DNA of 64,000 bases, from contig OY282386.1 of NCBI GenBank assembly GCA_958295945.1, forward strand, positions 868,001 through 932,000, given 5' to 3'. A program made the translations under genes and the position numbers. The notes below the pieces were generated by a model. It had not been told where the DNA came from. It did not search any database and worked only from the letters and a program-made list of their open reading frames with translations. The DNA is from Candidatus Poribacteria bacterium. Its GTDB lineage: Bacteria > Poribacteria > WGA-4E > WGA-3G. This document shows, piece by piece, positions 3,471-18,899 of the stretch. Every line of letters begins with the position of its first letter. The stretch's first letter is position 1.

Positions 3471-5269
3471 CTAAATCCTAAATATCTCACCTAACTTACC
3501 ACCAAGCACACGCCCCGCACCTAGCAGACATGCAATTAGTATCAACATACCAACAACACCAAGTGCACTTGCAATGTATGGACCTTCACCGAGACGTTGA
3601 GATAATGACCAAATCGCCTTGGTTATTGGATAAAACTGGTTTTGTTGTGCCAAAATCAGACTCTCACTCACTTCCAACATGGAAAAAGAAAAAACAAGGA
3701 TTGCACCTGCTAGAATATTGGCAAAAACCAATGGCAACGTAATTTTGTACAAGGTTCTAACAGGTGTTGCCCCCATATTCTGCGAAGCTTCTTCGTATGA
3801 TACACTCGTTTGCTGGAAACCTGCATATATAGAACGTAACATATAGGGTAACCGCCTCACTGCATAGCCAACAATCAATAGGAAGGTTGGATTTTTTCTC
3901 GGGTCAATGACTTCAATAAGATTTTCAGGAAGAAATTTCAAAAGCAATGATGTGTCTGAAAAACTCCCCATATAGCCAAAGGCAATTGCAACTCCAGGCA
4001 AGGCTAAGGGTAACATAGCAATCGCATCTAACAGGTTCTGAAATGGGATACGTTTCCGCGTCAATAGATATGCAATGGCAACACCGACAAGGAGGGCAAT
4101 CAAGGTGCTGAAGATACTATATTTGAGACTATTAAGAATACTTGGCAGCGTATCAGAATGTGTAAACGTATCAATATAATGTTCAAAGGTATAGGATTTG
4201 GGTAGTACCGTCTGATACCATTCACTTGGTCCAGGAGTAACTGAAACTAATATGACACTGATATGTGGTAGCAATGCCATGAATGTCAATCCACCAATAA
4301 ATAGATATATGAGTCCTCTCAACCAATTATTAGCGTCTGTTTCTCGTGTTGTTACATGTCCGCGTCCAAGCATCTCATAATGTCTTGTTCCTGTCCATCT
4401 TTTAGACACGTAGAATGCCATAGCGGTCAAAACAATTACAAGTACAACAAGTGCATATCCCATCGGATTAAGATTCGCCTCTGTTACAAGTCTGAAAATC
4501 TCAACTGCGATAACATCATTGTAATTAAAAATCAAAGGTGTGCCGAGATCTGTAAATGCCCAAATAAAGACGAGAATCGCTCCAGCAAAATATCCTGGCA
4601 TCATTAAGGGGAGTGTAATTCGTCTGAATATATTAAATCGGGATGCACCCAAATTTTCTGCAGCTTCCTCTAAACTTGGATCAACATTCGCCAATGCAGC
4701 AACGATGTTGAGGTACATTATGGGATATAGATGTAATGTAGACAATAATACAACACCCCAAAAACCACCTTCAAACCAATCTATAAGATTGTTCATATCC
4801 AATATTCCGATTTCCACGAGAAACATGTTGATACTACCATATTTGCCGAAAAACTTTTGCATACCAAGCGCACCAACAAATGGAGGCATTATCATTGGGA
4901 TTAGAATGACTGAACGCAATAGATTACGACCTGGAAAACGGAAGCGAGTCAGAAAGTACGCCAACGGAAGACTAAAGATGCTTGTCAACAGTGTAACCAT
5001 AACACCGATTTTAAAACTATTGACAACAAGTACCCGTTTGTTAGGGTCTGTTACCATCAGTTTGAAAAATGTCAGGTCAAACCTACTATTAATCCAGAAG
5101 GCTTCTTTAAATACATAGAGGAGGGGATAGATGAGGAATATTACAAAAAATAAAACTGTTAATCCGAGGATTAGTATGATTGATGGAGTTAAATCATATT
5201 TACGCTTTATTCTATCTATAAAGGAAAGATTATTCAGTGAACAATCATATTCCTGTTGAGGCTCAAGCA
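3471..5269 (-). CDS. Double-domain ABC transporter permease (FbpB/AfuB-like, Fe3+ or similar)
   Basis: An inner-membrane permease of about 599 aa made of two fused binding-protein-dependent permease units. Each unit has six or so helices and one EAA loop: EEAAENLGASRFNIFRRI near residue 200 and EEASQNMGATPVRTLYKI near 500. This fused layout is typical of ferric-iron (FbpB), and some thiamine or polyamine-like, permeases. The frame opens at a TTG (5297), but the ATG at 5267-5269 follows GGAG by 6 bases and is the likely start; an ATG at 5282 is the alternative. No substrate-binding protein or ATPase gene lies next to it, so the rest of the transporter must be elsewhere and the substrate stays open. 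Confidence 0.82.
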
Positions 5270-10717: not shown

Positions 10718-11620
10718 CTATTCCAATCCCCACTGTTTCTTCGCTTCTTCAAATGAAATCTTCTGACCACCAGTATGGGATATAGGATTTTTCCCCACCC
10801 AACGCTCATCAATCGGGTGTTCCGCGGGTTGGAATCGGATGTCACAACTAATACGCCACCGATCCGATAGATTCTTCGTTGAGGTATGCATCGTGTGCAT
10901 CGTGAAAACGATTATATCCCCCATCTCAAAATCAGTTGTTTTCCATTCCCCTCCGTATTTATCACTGATTGCCATAGGATCTCTACCAAAATGTCCAGGA
11001 GTTCCATCCTTATCAACATCGGTTTTGCCATAGGTGTCGCGCACAGGTGCAAAACTATCCAAACGATGTGAACCTTCAAGCAAAGTGAGTGTACCCATCG
11101 TCGCAGGCACATCTCCAAATGGTATCCAGCAGGTGTGCAACTGCTTTGATCCTCTTCCCATATAAACAAAATCAAAATGCGGACCAGACCAACCATCAGG
11201 ACGGACAAAGCGAAGCCACTTGTAGTCAAACGTGCGTGTCTCCCCTTCAAAGAAATTACGGAAGAACGCAAAAAGTTCATCACCTTCCAAAACAGAAAGT
11301 ACATCTGGATGATGTGTGACAGCAGGTGCCCCCATCGTACGTCCCGGACTACCCGAACCAGCAATCGCATCCATCATGTCAGTTCCCGGTTTGAATACCT
11401 CATCTTTTCCGTTACCTTCAGCATATTCAAGAATAGCGCGTCGGGCGGCATTAACCTTATCCTTATCAATTAAGCCCCGAACGAGTAAATACCCATCCTC
11501 TGCTATTTGCTGATGCAGTCCTTCTGCAGAATCGAGTACGCCGTTGCAATCTCTCAACACACCAAGGTGTGGTCCAGGAAAGGATACCTCGTGATCTCCA
11601 ACAAATACGGTTTCAGCCAT
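10718..11620 (-). CDS. Phytanoyl-CoA dioxygenase (PhyH) family oxygenase
   Basis: A 300-aa non-haem Fe(II)/2-oxoglutarate-dependent oxygenase of the PhyH family. The iron ligands are visible as H148-x-D150 in SGPHFDFVYMG and a distal histidine in TMHTMHTS (H242 or H245). An arginine (R256, in RWRISCDIRFQP) should hold 2-oxoglutarate. The N-terminal EDGYLLVRGLI start of the fold is typical. GGAGG lies 6 bases before the ATG. The substrate is unknown; this family acts on many small molecules besides phytanoyl-CoA and is often greatly expanded in marine and sponge-associated bacteria. Its start overlaps the end of the upstream DprA-like gene by 8 bases. Confidence 0.9.
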   Translation of the reverse strand: MAETVFVGDHEVSFPGPHLGVLRDCNGVLDSAEGLHQQIAEDGYLLVRGLIDKDKVNAARRAILEYAEGNGKDEVFKPGTDMMDAIAGSGSPGRTMGAPAVTHHPDVLSVLEGDELFAFFRNFFEGETRTFDYKWLRFVRPDGWSGPHFDFVYMGRGSKQLHTCWIPFGDVPATMGTLTLLEGSHRLDSFAPVRDTYGKTDVDKDGTPGHFGRDPMAISDKYGGEWKTTDFEMGDIIVFTMHTMHTSTKNLSDRWRISCDIRFQPAEHPIDERWVGKNPISHTGGQKISFEEAKKQWGLE

Positions 11621-12254
11621 TGTTTTCCTCCGAATAGGGTTTTACCCCAAATTGTAAAAGTGCTTTGTTATACGATGAATCAAAGGTGTAAACTGGTTTT
11701 CTCCATTTCAATAATGTTCTTGCAAATTCTAATGTCTTACTACCTTCAGCGGCGTGAGCGATCAATACCTTATTTGCTAAAGCAGCGACAAATGCATTAC
11801 GTTTACTTGCCAATTGAGCATTTTGCTTTGGTTTGTTTTCAAAAATGGATACAATCAGTAACCTGTCTTCTGCTAAAGGCTTTTTCCATTCTTGTTTTAT
11901 ACGCATATTTTCAATACTTCGTGCGGGACTAATAATAATCGGTTGTGAACCACGAAGCAACACTCGCAAGCATTCCTTTTCAATAGGTGAATGAAACCCA
12001 CCGATTGTTGGTATACCTTTATTTTTAAACTCCTGTGCTAAGTCGTGTGCCTTTAATATAATCTCTCCAGGACATTTACTGGAACAGAATATTGCCCATA
12101 GATCCGCTTCTCCAGTATCGTTTTGCCTACATGTCAGCAGATCTAAATTCCCACGCGTCCATATCGTTTCTGGAGTCTCGGCATCTAAATATGCCTTTAT
12201 TGAAGATGGATAGTTTTTGTCTATTTGCGTAATTTGTTGAATTTGCGGTGTCAC
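11613..12254 (-). CDS. Short DprA/Smf-like (SLOG-fold) protein
   Basis: 213 aa with the core of the DprA/Smf Rossmann-like domain. TIWTRGNLDLL (about 30-40) is followed by AIFCSSKCPGEIILKAHDLA, where DprA proteins carry their nucleotide-site strand. Then come KGIPTIGGFHSPIEKECL and the SKRNAFVAALANKVLIAHAAEGSKT stretch that resembles the DprA R(N)xx(I/V)A region. It lacks the N-terminal SAM-like and C-terminal winged-helix parts of full DprA, which loads RecA on DNA during transformation. A competence role is therefore doubtful and a stand-alone SLOG protein is equally possible. The start is GTG with no clear ribosome site. It overlaps the PhyH gene by 8 bases. Confidence 0.65.
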   Translation of the reverse strand: MTPQIQQITQIDKNYPSSIKAYLDAETPETIWTRGNLDLLTCRQNDTGEADLWAIFCSSKCPGEIILKAHDLAQEFKNKGIPTIGGFHSPIEKECLRVLLRGSQPIIISPARSIENMRIKQEWKKPLAEDRLLIVSIFENKPKQNAQLASKRNAFVAALANKVLIAHAAEGSKTLEFARTLLKWRKPVYTFDSSYNKALLQFGVKPYSEENNG

Positions 12255-12283: not shown

Positions 12284-12540
12284 TTTAATCGTTCACTTAA
12301 TCGTTCACTTTTCCGATAGATCCATTTCTATTCTTCCTATTAGAAAGCAATAAACGACTATTAAACAAGTATTTATAGAGAATATCAGTTACCTAATCGC
12401 TTACCTAATCGTTCATTTTTTTGGATAGATTGGTCTCTATTCCTACCATTACAAGCAATAAACGACTATTGAGAACACATTCAAGACGAAAATCAGTTAC
12501 TTATCAGTTACCTAATCAGTTACTTATCAGTTACTTTTCG
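12284..12540 (-). repeat. Degenerate tandem copies of a winged-helix gene 3' end
   Basis: Downstream of the broken AlbA_2 gene there are two diverged units of about 100 bp (12284-12390 and about 12391-12500) and a third that merges with the gene's own end. Each contains an AT-rich CAATAAACGACTATT-type block and a cluster of short repeats (TCGTTCACTTAA, or CAGTTACTTAT at 12490-12535). Read on the minus strand they resemble repeated versions of the end of the winged-helix domain (RLLLxMxG... followed by KV(T/N)D). They appear to be tandem duplications that have decayed. Confidence 0.55.
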
Positions 12541-13193
12541 GGTGTGCTTCGTCCCTCTACCCTTCCCTATCATAAACAATAACCTTTTACCTGTCATATC
12601 CTTTAGTTCTTCGTAGGCAGTTCGGTGTGAAACTTGATTAATATGCATATATTCTTTTATTGTGTTACATTCCGTTGCGTTTCTCTTTGAGTCAGGTACC
12701 ATTGGATCTTTTGTTCATCTATATCGTCATTTCTTGTACTTGCGACTGAGAGTTGATCCCACGTTTGTCCAACAGACTTGAGGTGCATCTGTGCAATCTC
12801 TTGTGGTGACATAACCCGGTTACTATTCCCTACTCTCTTATAGCATATTCCTTTAGTAGAGACAGGTTTTATTGAAGATTCTGCAATATGCACTAAAAGC
12901 ACTGATTTTCCTTCTACGTCAACCGATTCAACTTCCAACATTACTCGCGGATCAATTGCTTGAGAAATCCGGTTAGCCGCATCTTTTAGTGTTTCTTTCC
13001 CGATGGTAATGCCAATAATTTTCCCATCATCAGAAACACCAACGAAAATGATACCTGTATTCGTATTCGCAAATGCAACAGCCGTTTCAATTGCTTCTTG
13101 ACCAAGCCGTTCTTTGAATTCGGTTGTGTTGCTTTCACCTTGCTTAATGCGTTGTTTGAGTTCTGCGGTTTGCATAGTGTTGATAACTGCCAC
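12520..13193 (-). pseudogene. AlbA_2/Schlafen-like DNA-binding protein with winged helix, frameshifted
   Basis: The first part (12657-13193, GTG start, 178 aa) is a clear AlbA_2 domain (the Schlafen/RecG-related putative DNA-binding domain). It has ESNTTEFKERLGQEAIETAV, then FANTNTGIIFVGVSDDGKIIG and the KGICYKRVGNSNRVM segment. The reading frame stops at 12657-12659. The next frame (12520-12702) carries a winged-helix continuation, IKEYMHINQVSHRTAYEEL followed by KDMTGKRLLFMIGKGRGTK, which is the expected C-terminal domain. The two halves meet at an ACACAATAAAAG sequence, so one inserted or lost base broke the gene, or it is a programmed slip. Such proteins are regulators or defence-related; the exact role is unknown. 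Confidence 0.65.
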
Positions 13194-13223: not shown

Positions 13224-13658
13224 TCAAACAGTCCGTTCCTGTTTGAGTGTTTCTATCTCCTGCTGTAAGTTTTCATTCTGCTTGTGTAGCGATTCTATTT
13301 GTTGATCTTGTTTTTTGATGTTTTTTCCCTGCATTGCAACGATGATTTGGGGTATACCAACAACCGCAGCAATAAATCCGACCAAAACGATAACTAACGT
13401 GAAGATATTGTCTAATCGTTTGCTCATTTCAGTAATTGAAGCATTTACCGGACGAATTTCCTTTGCTATCTCTTGTGTAACATATTCTTTCATTCGCTTC
13501 TCAGTGGTATCTACATATTCTTTCATTCGCTTTTCAGATGCTTCAACTTCCTCTTTGACAACTAACCGGATCTTGTTCAGGTCCGCATCTATTAGTTGAC
13601 TGTCCGCAGTTAAATTAAAGAACAATAGTCCAACGATCAAAGCCATCATTAATTTCAT
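13224..13658 (-). CDS. Membrane-anchored coiled-coil protein with duplicated motif
   Basis: 144 aa from the ATG at 13656-13658, which has AAGGAG 7 bases before it; the frame opens 9 codons earlier without such a site. The N-terminus (MKLMMALIVGLLFFNLTADS) is a signal peptide or anchor. An exact repeat EKRMKEYV occurs twice within 20 residues in a helical segment. A second hydrophobic helix (FTLVIVLVGFIAAVVGIPQI) follows, and then a strong coiled coil of Q, E, K and N to the end. No enzyme motif is seen. It resembles small coiled-coil envelope proteins of unknown role and lies between two accessory genes. Confidence 0.6.
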   Translation of the reverse strand: MKLMMALIVGLLFFNLTADSQLIDADLNKIRLVVKEEVEASEKRMKEYVDTTEKRMKEYVTQEIAKEIRPVNASITEMSKRLDNIFTLVIVLVGFIAAVVGIPQIIVAMQGKNIKKQDQQIESLHKQNENLQQEIETLKQERTV

Positions 13659-13690
13659 TTGTGTCTCCTTCAACATGTTAGTCATTTATT

Positions 13691-13954: not shown

Positions 13955-15586
13955 TTACAAAGGAAAGAATACACTCGGACAATGGTCTTGAATCCCATAC
14001 CATTTTAGACACCAATTGCCAATTCTTATTTTTGGTTTTGAAATAGTAAAATGCTCTCCTTCTTTAGGAAGGTACTTTCTGTATTTCAACCATTCCATCG
14101 TTGATTGAAGACTGTCTGTCGTCTTTAACTTTTCTATGAGATGGTTAGCGCGGATAACTGGAATATCTGGAGATTGGACATTACCAGACCCAATCCAATT
14201 CTCCGAAACAACGATTCCTTCAAGTCTGTACCTGGAATCAATGTTAAGTCTTTTTAATAACGGTTCGTAATTATCCCCAAAAGCCTGTTTTAGTTTTAGC
14301 ACCTGAGAAATGCCTTTCTTAATCTCTTTGGATTTATTAATACGTTCTTGTGCTGTCGTTGGCGCAATGAACCATTTTAATTCTAAAAGTAAACATGCTT
14401 TTTCGGAATGACTTACAATGGCGAGGTCAATATCTGTTAAGTTTGCTACATTTCCCGAATAAGATTTAAAATCTGTACCAGATAATCGGGTCTTAATACG
14501 CTCTTTCATTAAGTTTTCTTTTTCATTAACATATTTTTCATAGATCCCTTTTTCAGATGGAAGCCTATTTACGAGGGAAATAAAATTTCGCTCCGCTGCA
14601 GAACAAATCCATATATTAGGCACAATTGCGTAGTGTTTTAAATTTAGTTTAATTAAAGGTTGTAAAGCAGGGACAGGGCTTGTAATGCCGCTATTTCCAT
14701 AGGTCAAATCATCAAGAACGCCTTGTACGTCTATAGGTGACATACCAGAATATCTAGCAACAGTCCTAATCAATTTACCGTAGGTCATCATGTAAAGACT
14801 ATCAACATAACCCTTATGAATAACCCCTTGTTTCGCAGCCATTTTATGTGCTTTCCAGTGAATATGGGCTATAGCGCAAATTACTTCAAAAATCTTGCGA
14901 AAGTCACCCAACGTATAACGACTAAATTCCCACCTACTTGGCAATATAAACATTCTATCAAATAAGGGATGCAGATACGTTTTCATATCAGCAACTATTT
15001 TTGGTTCCAATGTATAGTGAAATCTATCACCTTCTATCTTTAGAGAGTCCTTGATTGCCTTTACAGGAAAATGTTCAGGATTTAGAAAAGGTCGTGCTTC
15101 CTCAGGTTCACGCGGATCAATTAAGATATTGTATGCCTCGTACTCTATACTTGCGAAAAAATCCCCGGTTGGTTGAATAGTTGATCCTTGAAGTTCCAAG
15201 TCAAGGACCCTATCCTTGCCACTGGCGCATGTATATGCAAAGATGAACCAGTCGTATTTCCTGCCTAACTCAAATAAATCCTTTGATGCTTTGTAAAGAT
15301 CGTTATCTCTTGCAATGGAAATTTGGCCACTTTGTTCACAAGCATGGTAGATCCAAGACATAGAATGCTCAATTTCAGTAATGAAATCACTACCAAGGTT
15401 GTGAATATCTTGTACTCTACTAAGTCCACCTATTTGCTCATTTAGCATATACTCTTCTGCGGACGACAACAAATACCATGCAGCAGTTGCAAACGGGAGT
15501 TTGAGAAGCGGATTAGACTTGTAATAGCTGTCTATCTCTTTCTCCACTTCTCGCAATTCAGGTGAAACGCCATCTGTACTATTCAT
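13955..15586 (-). CDS. Large accessory protein with PD-(D/E)XK nuclease-like signature
   Basis: A 543-aa soluble protein with a clear AAGGAGG 7 bases before its ATG. The first 340 residues are helix-rich and I do not recognise them. The last third carries a likely PD-(D/E)XK nuclease core: TDIDLAIVSHSEKACLLLEL followed by KW, with D387, E402 and K404 spaced as in this superfamily. Helix QERINKSKEIKKGISQVLKL follows. No partner gene is adjacent in an operon; neighbours are a broken small gene downstream and a restriction-type scar upstream. A nuclease of a defence or DNA-processing system is a reasonable but unproven reading. Confidence 0.6.
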   Translation of the reverse strand: MNSTDGVSPELREVEKEIDSYYKSNPLLKLPFATAAWYLLSSAEEYMLNEQIGGLSRVQDIHNLGSDFITEIEHSMSWIYHACEQSGQISIARDNDLYKASKDLFELGRKYDWFIFAYTCASGKDRVLDLELQGSTIQPTGDFFASIEYEAYNILIDPREPEEARPFLNPEHFPVKAIKDSLKIEGDRFHYTLEPKIVADMKTYLHPLFDRMFILPSRWEFSRYTLGDFRKIFEVICAIAHIHWKAHKMAAKQGVIHKGYVDSLYMMTYGKLIRTVARYSGMSPIDVQGVLDDLTYGNSGITSPVPALQPLIKLNLKHYAIVPNIWICSAAERNFISLVNRLPSEKGIYEKYVNEKENLMKERIKTRLSGTDFKSYSGNVANLTDIDLAIVSHSEKACLLLELKWFIAPTTAQERINKSKEIKKGISQVLKLKQAFGDNYEPLLKRLNIDSRYRLEGIVVSENWIGSGNVQSPDIPVIRANHLIEKLKTTDSLQSTMEWLKYRKYLPKEGEHFTISKPKIRIGNWCLKWYGIQDHCPSVFFPL

Positions 15587-17049: not shown

Positions 17050-17598
17050 TCATTTAACTGGTTGATATGCCGATAATTGACGATGAACTTCAGGTAGTGC
17101 ACCGTTTTTTAGCCAAGTAATTGGTTGTTCTTCTGTTGTCCGTTCAGGATTTACCCAGATGATGTTTCGGATTTCGCCGACTTGTTGTGAAACTTGTGCA
17201 TATAGCATACGAACGGTTTCATCAAGTGAAATGATTGTCTTGTCAGTTTCGAGTGCTGCTTCAATTAGATGTATATCTTTATGCATTGTATCAATATCAT
17301 TTTCATTATCTGTTGTGTTTGTAATCTTGTCTTTGATTCCTGTATTATTTGGCAGAATAATACGGTCTACCTTTTTACGTGCATCCATTGACAACCGCCA
17401 CCTTCTGGCAAAACGGGATTGATGTTGTTTCCATTCATCACTAATTTTATTGGTCATTACAAGTTTATGATTCTGTGATCTAACTACTATTAGGAAATCA
17501 CGACAATTAACAGCACGCGGGTGGGTTGCAGTTTCGCTGCCGGCGGCTTGGGCAACATCCGCGTCAATAACCAATTGTTTTGTATTGGTATATCTCAC
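17050..17598 (-). CDS. PIN-like nuclease, partner of AAA ATPase
   Basis: 182 aa. It looks like a PIN-type ribonuclease domain. The first strand ends LVIDADVAQAAG (D12, D14). A helix segment VMTNKISDEWKQHQSRFARR brings D54/E55. A DIHLIEAALETDKTIISLDE stretch carries D108, E113 and, at the end of its last strand, D126. These acidic positions match the metal site layout of PIN nucleases. The start is GTG with GGAGG 4 bases before it, inside the end of the ATPase gene (GTGA overlap of 4 bases), so translation is coupled and the pair should act together. A toxin-like effector controlled by the ATPase is the likely role; this is inference. Confidence 0.72.
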   Translation of the reverse strand: MRYTNTKQLVIDADVAQAAGSETATHPRAVNCRDFLIVVRSQNHKLVMTNKISDEWKQHQSRFARRWRLSMDARKKVDRIILPNNTGIKDKITNTTDNENDIDTMHKDIHLIEAALETDKTIISLDETVRMLYAQVSQQVGEIRNIIWVNPERTTEEQPITWLKNGALPEVHRQLSAYQPVK

Positions 17599-18899
17599 TC
17601 TACCTCCGATTGCCCAAATCTAAGTTTGTCTACGGCATCAAGATAACGACTCTCGGTTCTGAGATCCACATCATCAAAATCAACAGACCACTCACCGTAA
17701 GTACCGGCTTCGTCTAAGTCTACACTGTCAACTTGGGTAATTCCTTCTTCATTCCGTGAAAACCAGTGCAGCTTGACTAAATCTGGAGAAAGTTTGCCTT
17801 CTGCCACAAGCGTTTGGATTCCCAAAAGTAGCAGTGAACTGTGTGTTTCAACTACGACACGCACACCACGTCTCGCTGCATCTGCTAACACTTGTGCTAA
17901 CTTGACTTGCGCGTTAGGATGTAGATGAAGTTCCGGTTGTTCAATATAAACCAATTGTCCCGGTTTTGCAGCTATCAGTGCCACTACAATAGGTAGAACT
18001 TGTGAAATTCCAAATCCTACATCAACAATATTGACCATATCTGCATCACTCGTGTTGCGGTGAGTCAGACGACCAACCTGAATTTCAACTCCAATATCAC
18101 CGATCTTTTTTGCACTGACTTGTCCTGTCAATTCAAGAATGTAAAGTGAATCTAACAACGTTTTTAAGCGTTTATCTCCGGTTTCCTGCCATTCGTGGAT
18201 AATACTTGCAACATAGTGTTCAAACGTACCGTGATATCGTGGACCTGTACTACTTAGTTTGTATGCACGTTCAGGATTTCCACGTAATCCAAGTAGGTGA
18301 ATGGTATCGCTAATGAATTGACCAAAACCAGAAGTGACTTCATAGAATTTATTGCTATCAAGCGATCCAATATACAAGAAACAACGTGATCGCTTCACTA
18401 TATTATAACCATTAATAGACGAATCTTGATTGACTAATAACTTGATTTCATCAGGAGACATGTCTGGATACAAAGTAAAATTTTGAGGAAAAGGTTGTTG
18501 ATCAATCTCAAAATTAGTTTTCCTGCTCATTTCAACAATTTCAATCCCATTTTTCCGTTTTCTGAAGGTCGTTCCGATAGAGATAAACATTTCAGAAACA
18601 CAAGTCTCAACCTGAACCTGAAATTGATCTGTCTGTGTTTCATTTTTTCCTTTTGACAAAAATTGTTCTGCAAAAGTAAACCGGACGTTTGGTCCATCAA
18701 TCAACAAGGGGCCAGGATCATACGGTGCCTCCAATGTCTGTTTTAACATCAAAAGCGGCTGCATCATACTGGATTTGCCAGAGCTGTTCGCACCAGCAAG
18801 GATCGTTAGGGGGCGGATGTCAATTTGACATTCTTCCACAATTGATTTGAAACCTTTTACAGATATCTTGGTTATGCCATTATCTCTTTTATTCAACAT
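17595..18899 (-). CDS. AAA_15/OLD-like (SMC-type) ATPase
   Basis: A 434-aa ABC/SMC-type ATPase of the AAA_15-AAA_21 kind found in many phage-defence systems. The N-terminal ISVKGFKSIVEECQIDIRP strand leads to Walker A GANSSGKSS (37-45). The second half has the signature DVGFGISQVLPIVVALI, Walker B LVYIEQPELHLHP and the H-loop VVVETHSSLLL. No TOPRIM nuclease is fused, unlike OLD proteins; the effector appears instead to be the PIN-like protein encoded directly downstream with a 4-base overlap. AAGGAG lies 9 bases before the ATG. The logic (sensor ATPase plus nuclease) is like PARIS or Septu, but the partner type differs. Confidence 0.85.
   Translation of the reverse strand: MLNKRDNGITKISVKGFKSIVEECQIDIRPLTILAGANSSGKSSMMQPLLMLKQTLEAPYDPGPLLIDGPNVRFTFAEQFLSKGKNETQTDQFQVQVETCVSEMFISIGTTFRKRKNGIEIVEMSRKTNFEIDQQPFPQNFTLYPDMSPDEIKLLVNQDSSINGYNIVKRSRCFLYIGSLDSNKFYEVTSGFGQFISDTIHLLGLRGNPERAYKLSSTGPRYHGTFEHYVASIIHEWQETGDKRLKTLLDSLYILELTGQVSAKKIGDIGVEIQVGRLTHRNTSDADMVNIVDVGFGISQVLPIVVALIAAKPGQLVYIEQPELHLHPNAQVKLAQVLADAARRGVRVVVETHSSLLLLGIQTLVAEGKLSPDLVKLHWFSRNEEGITQVDSVDLDEAGTYGEWSVDFDDVDLRTESRYLDAVDKLRFGQSEVE

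Follow-up and report, generated by a model that had tools for sequence, protein, structure and literature searches.

Tandem DNA arrays at the 3' end of AlbA_2/winged-helix genes covary with the recognition helix and are its probable target: a decayed locus in Poribacteria and its relatives

Introduction

A gene whose two protein-like parts stand in different reading frames, with short repeats running on behind it, raises two questions: what broke it, and what the repeats are. Such a gene lies in a 64,000-nucleotide stretch of a Candidatus Poribacteria genome (the whole stretch is called the window here), where a sequence-only reading had described an AlbA_2 part and a winged-helix part out of frame with each other, followed by decayed copies of the gene's own end, and had suggested repeat-driven decay or phase variation. 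We compare this locus with its intact relatives in Poribacteria and with genes of the same kind in other bacteria and in archaea. A literature search, with most subscription journals outside its coverage, returned no description of 3' arrays in these genes.

Results

The window gene carries an internal deletion

The gene is broken as had been described, with its AlbA_2 part (ORF 12657-13193) and its winged-helix part (within ORF 12520-12702, also on the minus strand) in different frames (Table 1). The AlbA_2 ORF belongs to the SLFN AlbA_2 family PF04326 (E=1.2e-27, 97.2 bits against a curated cut-off of 25.3), and is 65-78% identical to the N-terminal part of 20 or more Poribacteria genes, whose frames are mostly ~465 aa. 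When both sides are aligned to the intact relative L032, the N-terminal part runs up to 12660 and the C-terminal part resumes at 12669, with 722 nt of the reference absent between them (about codons 178-419, covering the end of the linker, the HATPase_c_4 domain and the start of the winged helix), so that an internal deletion took out the HATPase_c_4 part. The ACACAATAAAAG site is the deletion junction, and the bases flanking 12660/12669 hold no repeat tract. From this alignment the frame break reads as the scar of an ordinary ~722-bp internal deletion and not as a phase switch; an assembly error may be the source of the break. The window copy thus lacks an HATPase_c_4 domain between AlbA_2 and winged helix, and keeps the C-terminal winged helix, out of frame, together with a 3' tandem array, which marks it by comparison as a decayed relative of the ~465-aa intact form and not as an intact member. 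The gene probably died with the loss of its ATPase domain; its array survives, as do two older ones. A parallel is seen in an unrelated bacterium (L046, gene at 4001), where the AlbA_2 frame stops early, a winged-helix-like end lies in another frame, and an 11-bp array (TGAGCCAAAAA) is retained despite the break.

Table 1. Features of the decayed locus, in window coordinates and in the direction of the gene
Feature	Position	Strand	Basis
Truncated N-terminal part of AlbA_2/HATPase_c_4/winged-helix gene	12657..13193	-	SLFN_AlbA_2 (Pfam)
Deletion junction, frame altered	12660..12669	-	local alignment of both sides to intact L032
Winged-helix remnant, other frame, end ...GRGTKHTRKVTDK*	12520..12669	-	translation; aligns to L032 from codon ~419
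Recognition helix VSHRTAYEEL ('H type')	12604..12633	-	translation; equivalent columns 183-190 are the best array predictors
Array 1: GTAACTGATAA / GTAACTGATTAG / GTAACTGATAA / GTAACTGAT across stop codon	12490..12534	-	type expected for H-type helix
Spacer A, related to spacer B and to the L033 spacer	12417..12489	-	alignment vs shuffles
Array 2: ATGAACGATTAG / GTAAGCGATTAG / GTAACTGATATT, types mixed	12381..12416	-	sequence
Spacer B	12309..12380	-	alignment vs shuffles
Array 3: GTGAACGATTAA x2, type going with N-type helices elsewhere	12285..12308	-	sequence
DprA-like gene directly downstream	11613..12254	-	Pfam PF02481 3.4e-15; PADLOC PsyrA 1.4e-19, ShosA 3.4e-7

Intact Poribacteria genes carry the repeats across their stop codon

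An AlbA_2 gene is found at E<=1e-25 in 26 of 84 Poribacteria genomes, and the same-genus relatives are single open frames, mostly of ~465 codons. A check for intact homologues ending without a winged helix, which would have spoken against the sequence-only reading, turned out the other way: the intact homologues terminate in the winged helix. They end ..KVSD*VSD*VSD* (GRGTKYVRKVSD), in tandem 12-bp units with an in-frame stop in each, and the stop codon is itself part of the repeated unit (GTAAGCGATTAG GTAAGCGATTAG ...). The copy number of the array differs between relatives, and in Poribacteria the array ends shortly before the start of the next gene. Across the 84 genomes the pattern GATTARGTAAGCGATTAR occurs at 33 sites in 19 genomes, confined in each to a single stretch no longer than 215 bp, and a reversed-pattern control gave 0 sites in the same genomes. 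One stretch per genome rejects a dispersed repeat or mobile element, as does an 87-bp unit that has no further full copy in the single-contig 5.34-Mb genome, where its matches are both spacer units, one array hit and a hit of 21 bp.

Seven of the 19 array genomes have no AlbA_2 match passing 1e-25. Four of these keep the C-terminal part (L268, L269, L274, L278), and in the other three the gene is lost or nearly so, with its last bases and the array kept: G031 and G042 retain the last 60-70 bp and the array with different DNA upstream, and G058 (L272) retains half a winged helix. In both G042 and G031 the AlbA_2 gene has been replaced upstream of the kept 3' end: in G042 (L065) by a short HTH-like ORF joined in frame to ...VGKGRGTKYIRELSD*, and in G031 (L063) a DNA-methyltransferase-like ORF with an NPPY motif lies upstream.

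The downstream units are arrays of the same family

The repeat units behind the window gene exist as reported and include the array of the gene end; they are 11-12 bp long and form three arrays, with repeat families D1-D3 spaced 108 and 119 bp. The motif GTAACTGATWA (at most one mismatch) has 8 matches in the window against 2.95 expected, 5 of the 8 inside 12382-12534. Array 1 has one unit of 11 bp instead of 12 bp, and its assignment to the H-type rule described below rests on one other H-type gene, L011. Spacers A and B, aligned to each other and each to the spacer of L033, score above 500 of 500 shuffles. The likeness of the spacers to coding ends is weaker: spacer A against the window gene's own end was equalled by 7 of 500 shuffles and against the ends of five relatives by 1, 6, 34, 45 and 147; for spacer B the figures were 26 (own end) and 45-385 (five relatives), and for the L033 spacer 20-188 (five relatives). 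These scores make the window repeats certain and leave the 'RLLL' homology suggestive, so that of the earlier proposal of downstream copies of the gene's own end, the arrays and the mutually related spacers stand, and the resemblance to the coding end is a hint. By their units, the downstream elements are arrays of the same family but of other types, and they look like arrays left from earlier gene ends. The locus L272 shows a way in which they could arise, with a half-deleted gene end and its array followed by a spacer and an older array.

A DprA-like gene is the common downstream neighbour of the window locus, L033, L063 and L065. Further away in the window (17595-18899, minus strand) lies an ATPase with a PADLOC match to NsnB (6.3e-57); this ATPase and the DprA-like gene, both near the AlbA_2 locus, resemble parts of known anti-phage systems, and in several relatives an NsnB-like ATPase starts just past the array, directly after the AlbA_2 gene. 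Other neighbours in the window are phytanoyl-CoA-dioxygenase-like and coiled-coil genes. Upstream of the AlbA_2 gene, the coiled-coil ORF 13224-13685 contains a tandem 33-bp repeat at 13480-13545 (82% alike), and 13955-15586 (minus strand) holds a 543-aa ORF that matches neither Pfam (at E<=1) nor PADLOC.

Helix type and array type go together within Poribacteria

Among the Poribacteria relatives, the residues with which the third helix of the winged helix begins differ from gene to gene, as does the variable half of the repeat. Scored on the second array unit, all 26 Poribacteria genes have one array type per helix type: V with GTAAAC (n=4), R with GTAAGC (n=13), RQT with [TG]TAGGC (TTAGGC or GTAGGC, n=4), N with GTGAAC (n=2), P with TTGCGT (n=2) and H with GTAACT (n=1). 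Four of the 26 (the C-terminal remnants named above) came to light after the rule was noted, and the window gene, which stands outside the 26, also obeys it (VSHRTAY, H type; GTAACT). The first in-frame, coding unit is unlike the rest of the array in eight genes (L014, L016, L018, L019, L020, L024, L026, L274), and trailing units are often of another type.

On a tree of 22 protein bodies, with helix and array excluded, there are 12 changes of helix type and 12 of array type, and sister bodies with unlike helices bear matching arrays (L010/L015, L012/L014, L016/L023). Independent-pair tests never point in the opposite direction, and cannot reach significance because there are at most four pairs per type. 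Array type shares most mutual information with the residue that follows the Ser in the recognition helix (z 9.7), and the columns between helix and array, though nearer the array, reach z 4.0 at most.

Arrays in other bacteria and archaea

The family elsewhere in bacteria and archaea has 9-12-bp arrays, mostly of 11 bp, in the same place at the gene end. In a sample of 170 unique closed genes of the same kind that reach the winged-helix end, from other phyla and archaea, 120 carry three or more repeated 6-mers at the 3' end, whereas shuffled sequence gives 20.0 (sd 3.3); this threshold, like the 30% of shared words used below, was chosen by hand. Because the protein profile (A1) was built from 22 genes chosen mostly for having arrays, the genes L166-L265, taken by protein match alone, were counted separately, and there arrays occur in 51 of 62 genes at a score of at least 200 and in 13 of 29 below it, against 95 of 410 other ORF ends; about 18% of the well-matching genes (11/62) have no array by the 6-mer measure. 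Tandem Repeats Finder, applied to an earlier sample, found repeats in 53 of 77 genes with a winged helix; the counts were 3 of 10 where the protein has a different long tail, 4 of 26 where it lacks an HTH altogether, and 23 of 226 for control ORF ends.

The dominant spacing among 94 non-redundant array genes is 11 bp in 44, 12 bp in 10, 9 bp in 11, 10 bp in 8 and 20-24 bp in 14, and the first copy begins within the coding sequence in 64 of them. A coding role as a tetrapeptide repeat is unlikely for the 11-bp arrays, since they shift the frame with each unit and mostly run past the stop. One branch (L073, L082, L092, L111, L162, L165) has in-frame 12-bp repeats in the linker, coding for tetrapeptides (EKTG, KTSG, SLKS, TTQK, TIDK), before a different winged helix (..GGHWEV type), mostly without a terminal array; this is possibly the same idea with the array inside the coding sequence. 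A culturable type strain, Rhodothermus marinus DSM 4252, has a member on plasmid pRMAR01 (L320, gene RMAR_RS15480, 3082-3837, plus strand) with a KRTAS-type helix and, across its stop, an array of AATTGGGCAA/GAATTGGGCAA; the CDS as annotated is shorter than the protein match, which starts at 2501.

Helix and array covary between phylum-level groups

A partial Mantel test was run on the 94 genes left from the 170 after removal of 50 with fewer than three repeated 6-mers and 26 at more than 85% identity. In this test, array similarity follows helix similarity, given the body and the rest of the winged helix, with r=0.146 (null maximum 0.101; 0 of 2000 permutations). The rest of the winged helix (r 0.067, 12/2000) and the body (r 0.051, 34/2000) have weak effects of their own, which is what linkage and descent would give. 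Among 218 protein columns, the three that best predict the array, 184, 185 and 188, all belong to the recognition helix; the fourth-best, 215, lies in the C-terminal tail, where array and coding sequence overlap.

Between-group pairs with at least five of six helix positions equal share array words in 16 of 25 cases, against a mean of 0.59 when arrays are permuted within groups (0/2000 reach 16), the six positions having been picked after the column ranking and the pairs being mutually dependent. The helix SDEG[AV]R goes with TTGGCGATTA in L029, L054, L105, L216 and L221, which belong to four groups and have body identities of 41-50%; SNRTA[ST] and SERTAT go with AAGACGCC, SRNTAS and SR[IM]TAT with TGCAA-type units, and SKATATR and SKPTVTR with AAAGGGCTC. 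The other 9 of the 25 pairs share no words by the 30% rule, the KDRLAT pairs differing by one core base. A prediction of a AAAGGGGC array for L141, from its KKRTAS helix, failed, as L141 has a TCTTGCCATAA-type cluster. The 16 sharing pairs have a mean wing-side identity of only 47%. Where the wing match is below 45% but at least five of six helix positions agree, only 6 of 16 pairs share arrays, and where the wing match is at least 55% but at most three of six agree, 7 of 111 do. Part of the covariation is linkage, because array and winged helix adjoin in the DNA and may travel together.

Structure and known systems

The L032 protein as modelled by AlphaFold (from 13 sequences; mean pLDDT 68.5, with an unreliable N-terminal part) has a standard winged helix at 404-460, with helices at 404-416, 421-428 and 432-444 followed by two strands (pLDDT ~76-89). 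By hand-counted mapping, the predictive residues 431, 432 and 435 would sit at the start of the third helix of this model. With the whole model, Foldseek finds DIP2311 (PDB 3lmm), which matches the AlbA_2/HATPase part best in both structure and sequence, at 19% identity; weaker matches, at the level of the fold only, are to winged helices including those of TubR and AspA (3m9a, 5k5q) and of Fic proteins. TubR with tubC and AspA of pNOB8 are winged-helix centromere-binding proteins with tandem sites. The likeness lies in the small winged helix and in rows of short direct repeats at about one helical turn, and the differences are that in this family the sites lie across the stop codon of the gene that encodes the reader, and that the reader is fused to AlbA_2 and a GHKL ATPase. 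From the covariation we predict that this winged helix binds tandem direct repeats as in TubR-tubC.

Fic proteins with a C-terminal winged helix (PDB 8cil, by sequence match) have the same type of winged helix on a different catalytic domain. Among 26 Fic ORFs of one phylum-level sample, the winged-helix profile gave three strong matches, all environmental (L290, L302, L307), and all three genes have 3' repeats (9, 9 and 19 repeated 6-mers); those with a weak match have 0, 0 and 2, and 4 of the 20 without a match have at least three. The three strong cases, few as they are, suggest that the cassette is not tied to one enzyme. We do not claim a code shared by Fic and AlbA_2 genes: TGTGACAT and TGRGACAT are alike by eye, but no words are shared at similar helix by the 30% rule, and the one match, L232, has a dissimilar helix.

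The closest described function is that of TrlG, of the temperature-restricting locus of Photorhabdus, in which loss-of-function mutations release a growth arrest at raised temperature, according to the available text of PMC7554251. TrlG shares both domains, PF04326 and PF13749, with this family (PMC7554251), and the window copy, unlike TrlG, lacks the ATPase domain; the comparison is by description, and the available text of PMC7554251 describes neither a 3' array nor a winged helix in TrlG. By analogy, a family member of the TrlG kind can arrest growth, and the arrest by TrlG, lost on mutation, makes tight control of the family plausible, as far as that text goes.

Discussion

The array, its position and its covariation with the recognition helix, both within Poribacteria and between phylum-level groups, are observed. 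We think it likely, on comparative grounds, that the window gene is a decayed member of a widespread AlbA_2, GHKL-type HATPase_c_4 and winged-helix family, whose winged helix reads the array at its own 3' end, most likely by being bound to it. The tandem 9-12-bp sites across or just past the stop codon would then be an array built into the gene's own 3' end, with the C-terminal winged helix as its cognate reader, and the protein would most likely line its own gene end in a row, with roughly one protomer to each helical turn. We infer physical binding of the array from the sequence pattern, and hold the consequence of binding less firmly: as a roadblock or tether on its own 3' end, the bound protein may exert feedback by which a growth-inhibiting enzyme is kept scarce or parked. 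The array core lies upstream of the gene in 3 of 69 cases against 3.9 expected; with no enrichment there, a simple promoter operator is unsupported, and the operator in the own promoter expected of a toxin-antitoxin system is not seen. Feedback or tethering is favoured on two counts: the promoter lacks the motif, and the next gene does not always run in the same direction.

The best-surviving alternative, though we consider it unlikely, is that the array is an operator for the next gene, which in Poribacteria would be the DprA-like gene or the NsnB-like ATPase. Poribacteria arrays do stop just ahead of the next start, and of the 79 genes scored, 47 are followed by a co-directional ORF (of the 94, the other 15 are too near a contig end); against this, the neighbour is convergent in 18 of those 79 and 14 have none within 500 bp, and in the 47 the distances range from overlap to 499 bp, with many unrelated neighbours. 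Somewhat less probable is that the array serves mainly as a recombination site at which genes are swapped upstream of a fixed 3' end. The replaced genes of G031 and G042, the half winged helix of G058 and the tandem arrays of different type are what such a site would leave, but recombination alone does not explain the helix-array code, and in most genomes the gene is in place.

Less probable again is linkage alone, in which recombination or horizontal transfer moves winged helix and 3' repeats as a single block of DNA and the protein does not bind the repeats. It draws on the adjacency of the two in the DNA, on near-identical Poribacteria bodies that swap helix and array types, and on the array that stays behind after gene replacement in G031 and G042. 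The columns between helix and array nevertheless predict the array less well than the helix does, equal helices go with equal arrays in bodies of 41-50% identity, the low wing-side identity of the sharing pairs speaks against a common block, and linkage, even with arrays specific to helix type, leaves unexplained why genes without a winged helix lack them. Repeat-driven decay or phase variation, the explanation first offered for the window gene, draws on the broken frame, the 11-bp unit in array 1 and the copy number that varies between relatives, and is very improbable, as the short repeats are a conserved 3'-end feature kept by intact homologues, the break is a ~722-bp deletion scar whose junction lacks the repeat tract of a contingency locus, and 12-bp units with a stop in every one preserve the frame, so that array copy number cannot switch it.

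Beyond the favoured reading of a winged helix bound to its own gene's array, a wider and more tentative proposal, possible but not one we would favour, is a self-addressed effector module. Winged helix and cognate array would form a 3' cassette on genes of growth-inhibiting enzymes (AlbA_2-GHKL and, on the three strong cases, Fic), the array would restrain the enzyme on its own gene, and the enzyme would be released once the array is lost, copied or masked, as by invading DNA; specificity would diversify as helix and array are exchanged together, with old arrays left downstream as a record.

Pairing the reader and the target of a DNA-binding protein from sequence alone is normally hard. If the binding of the array by its own winged helix is true, each of these genes carries reader and target back to back, in many bacteria and archaea, and together they would be a natural collection of winged-helix/site pairs from which a recognition code could be read. 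It would also give a first functional handle on the large and almost unstudied AlbA_2-HATPase_c_4 family, namely control by the gene's own end.
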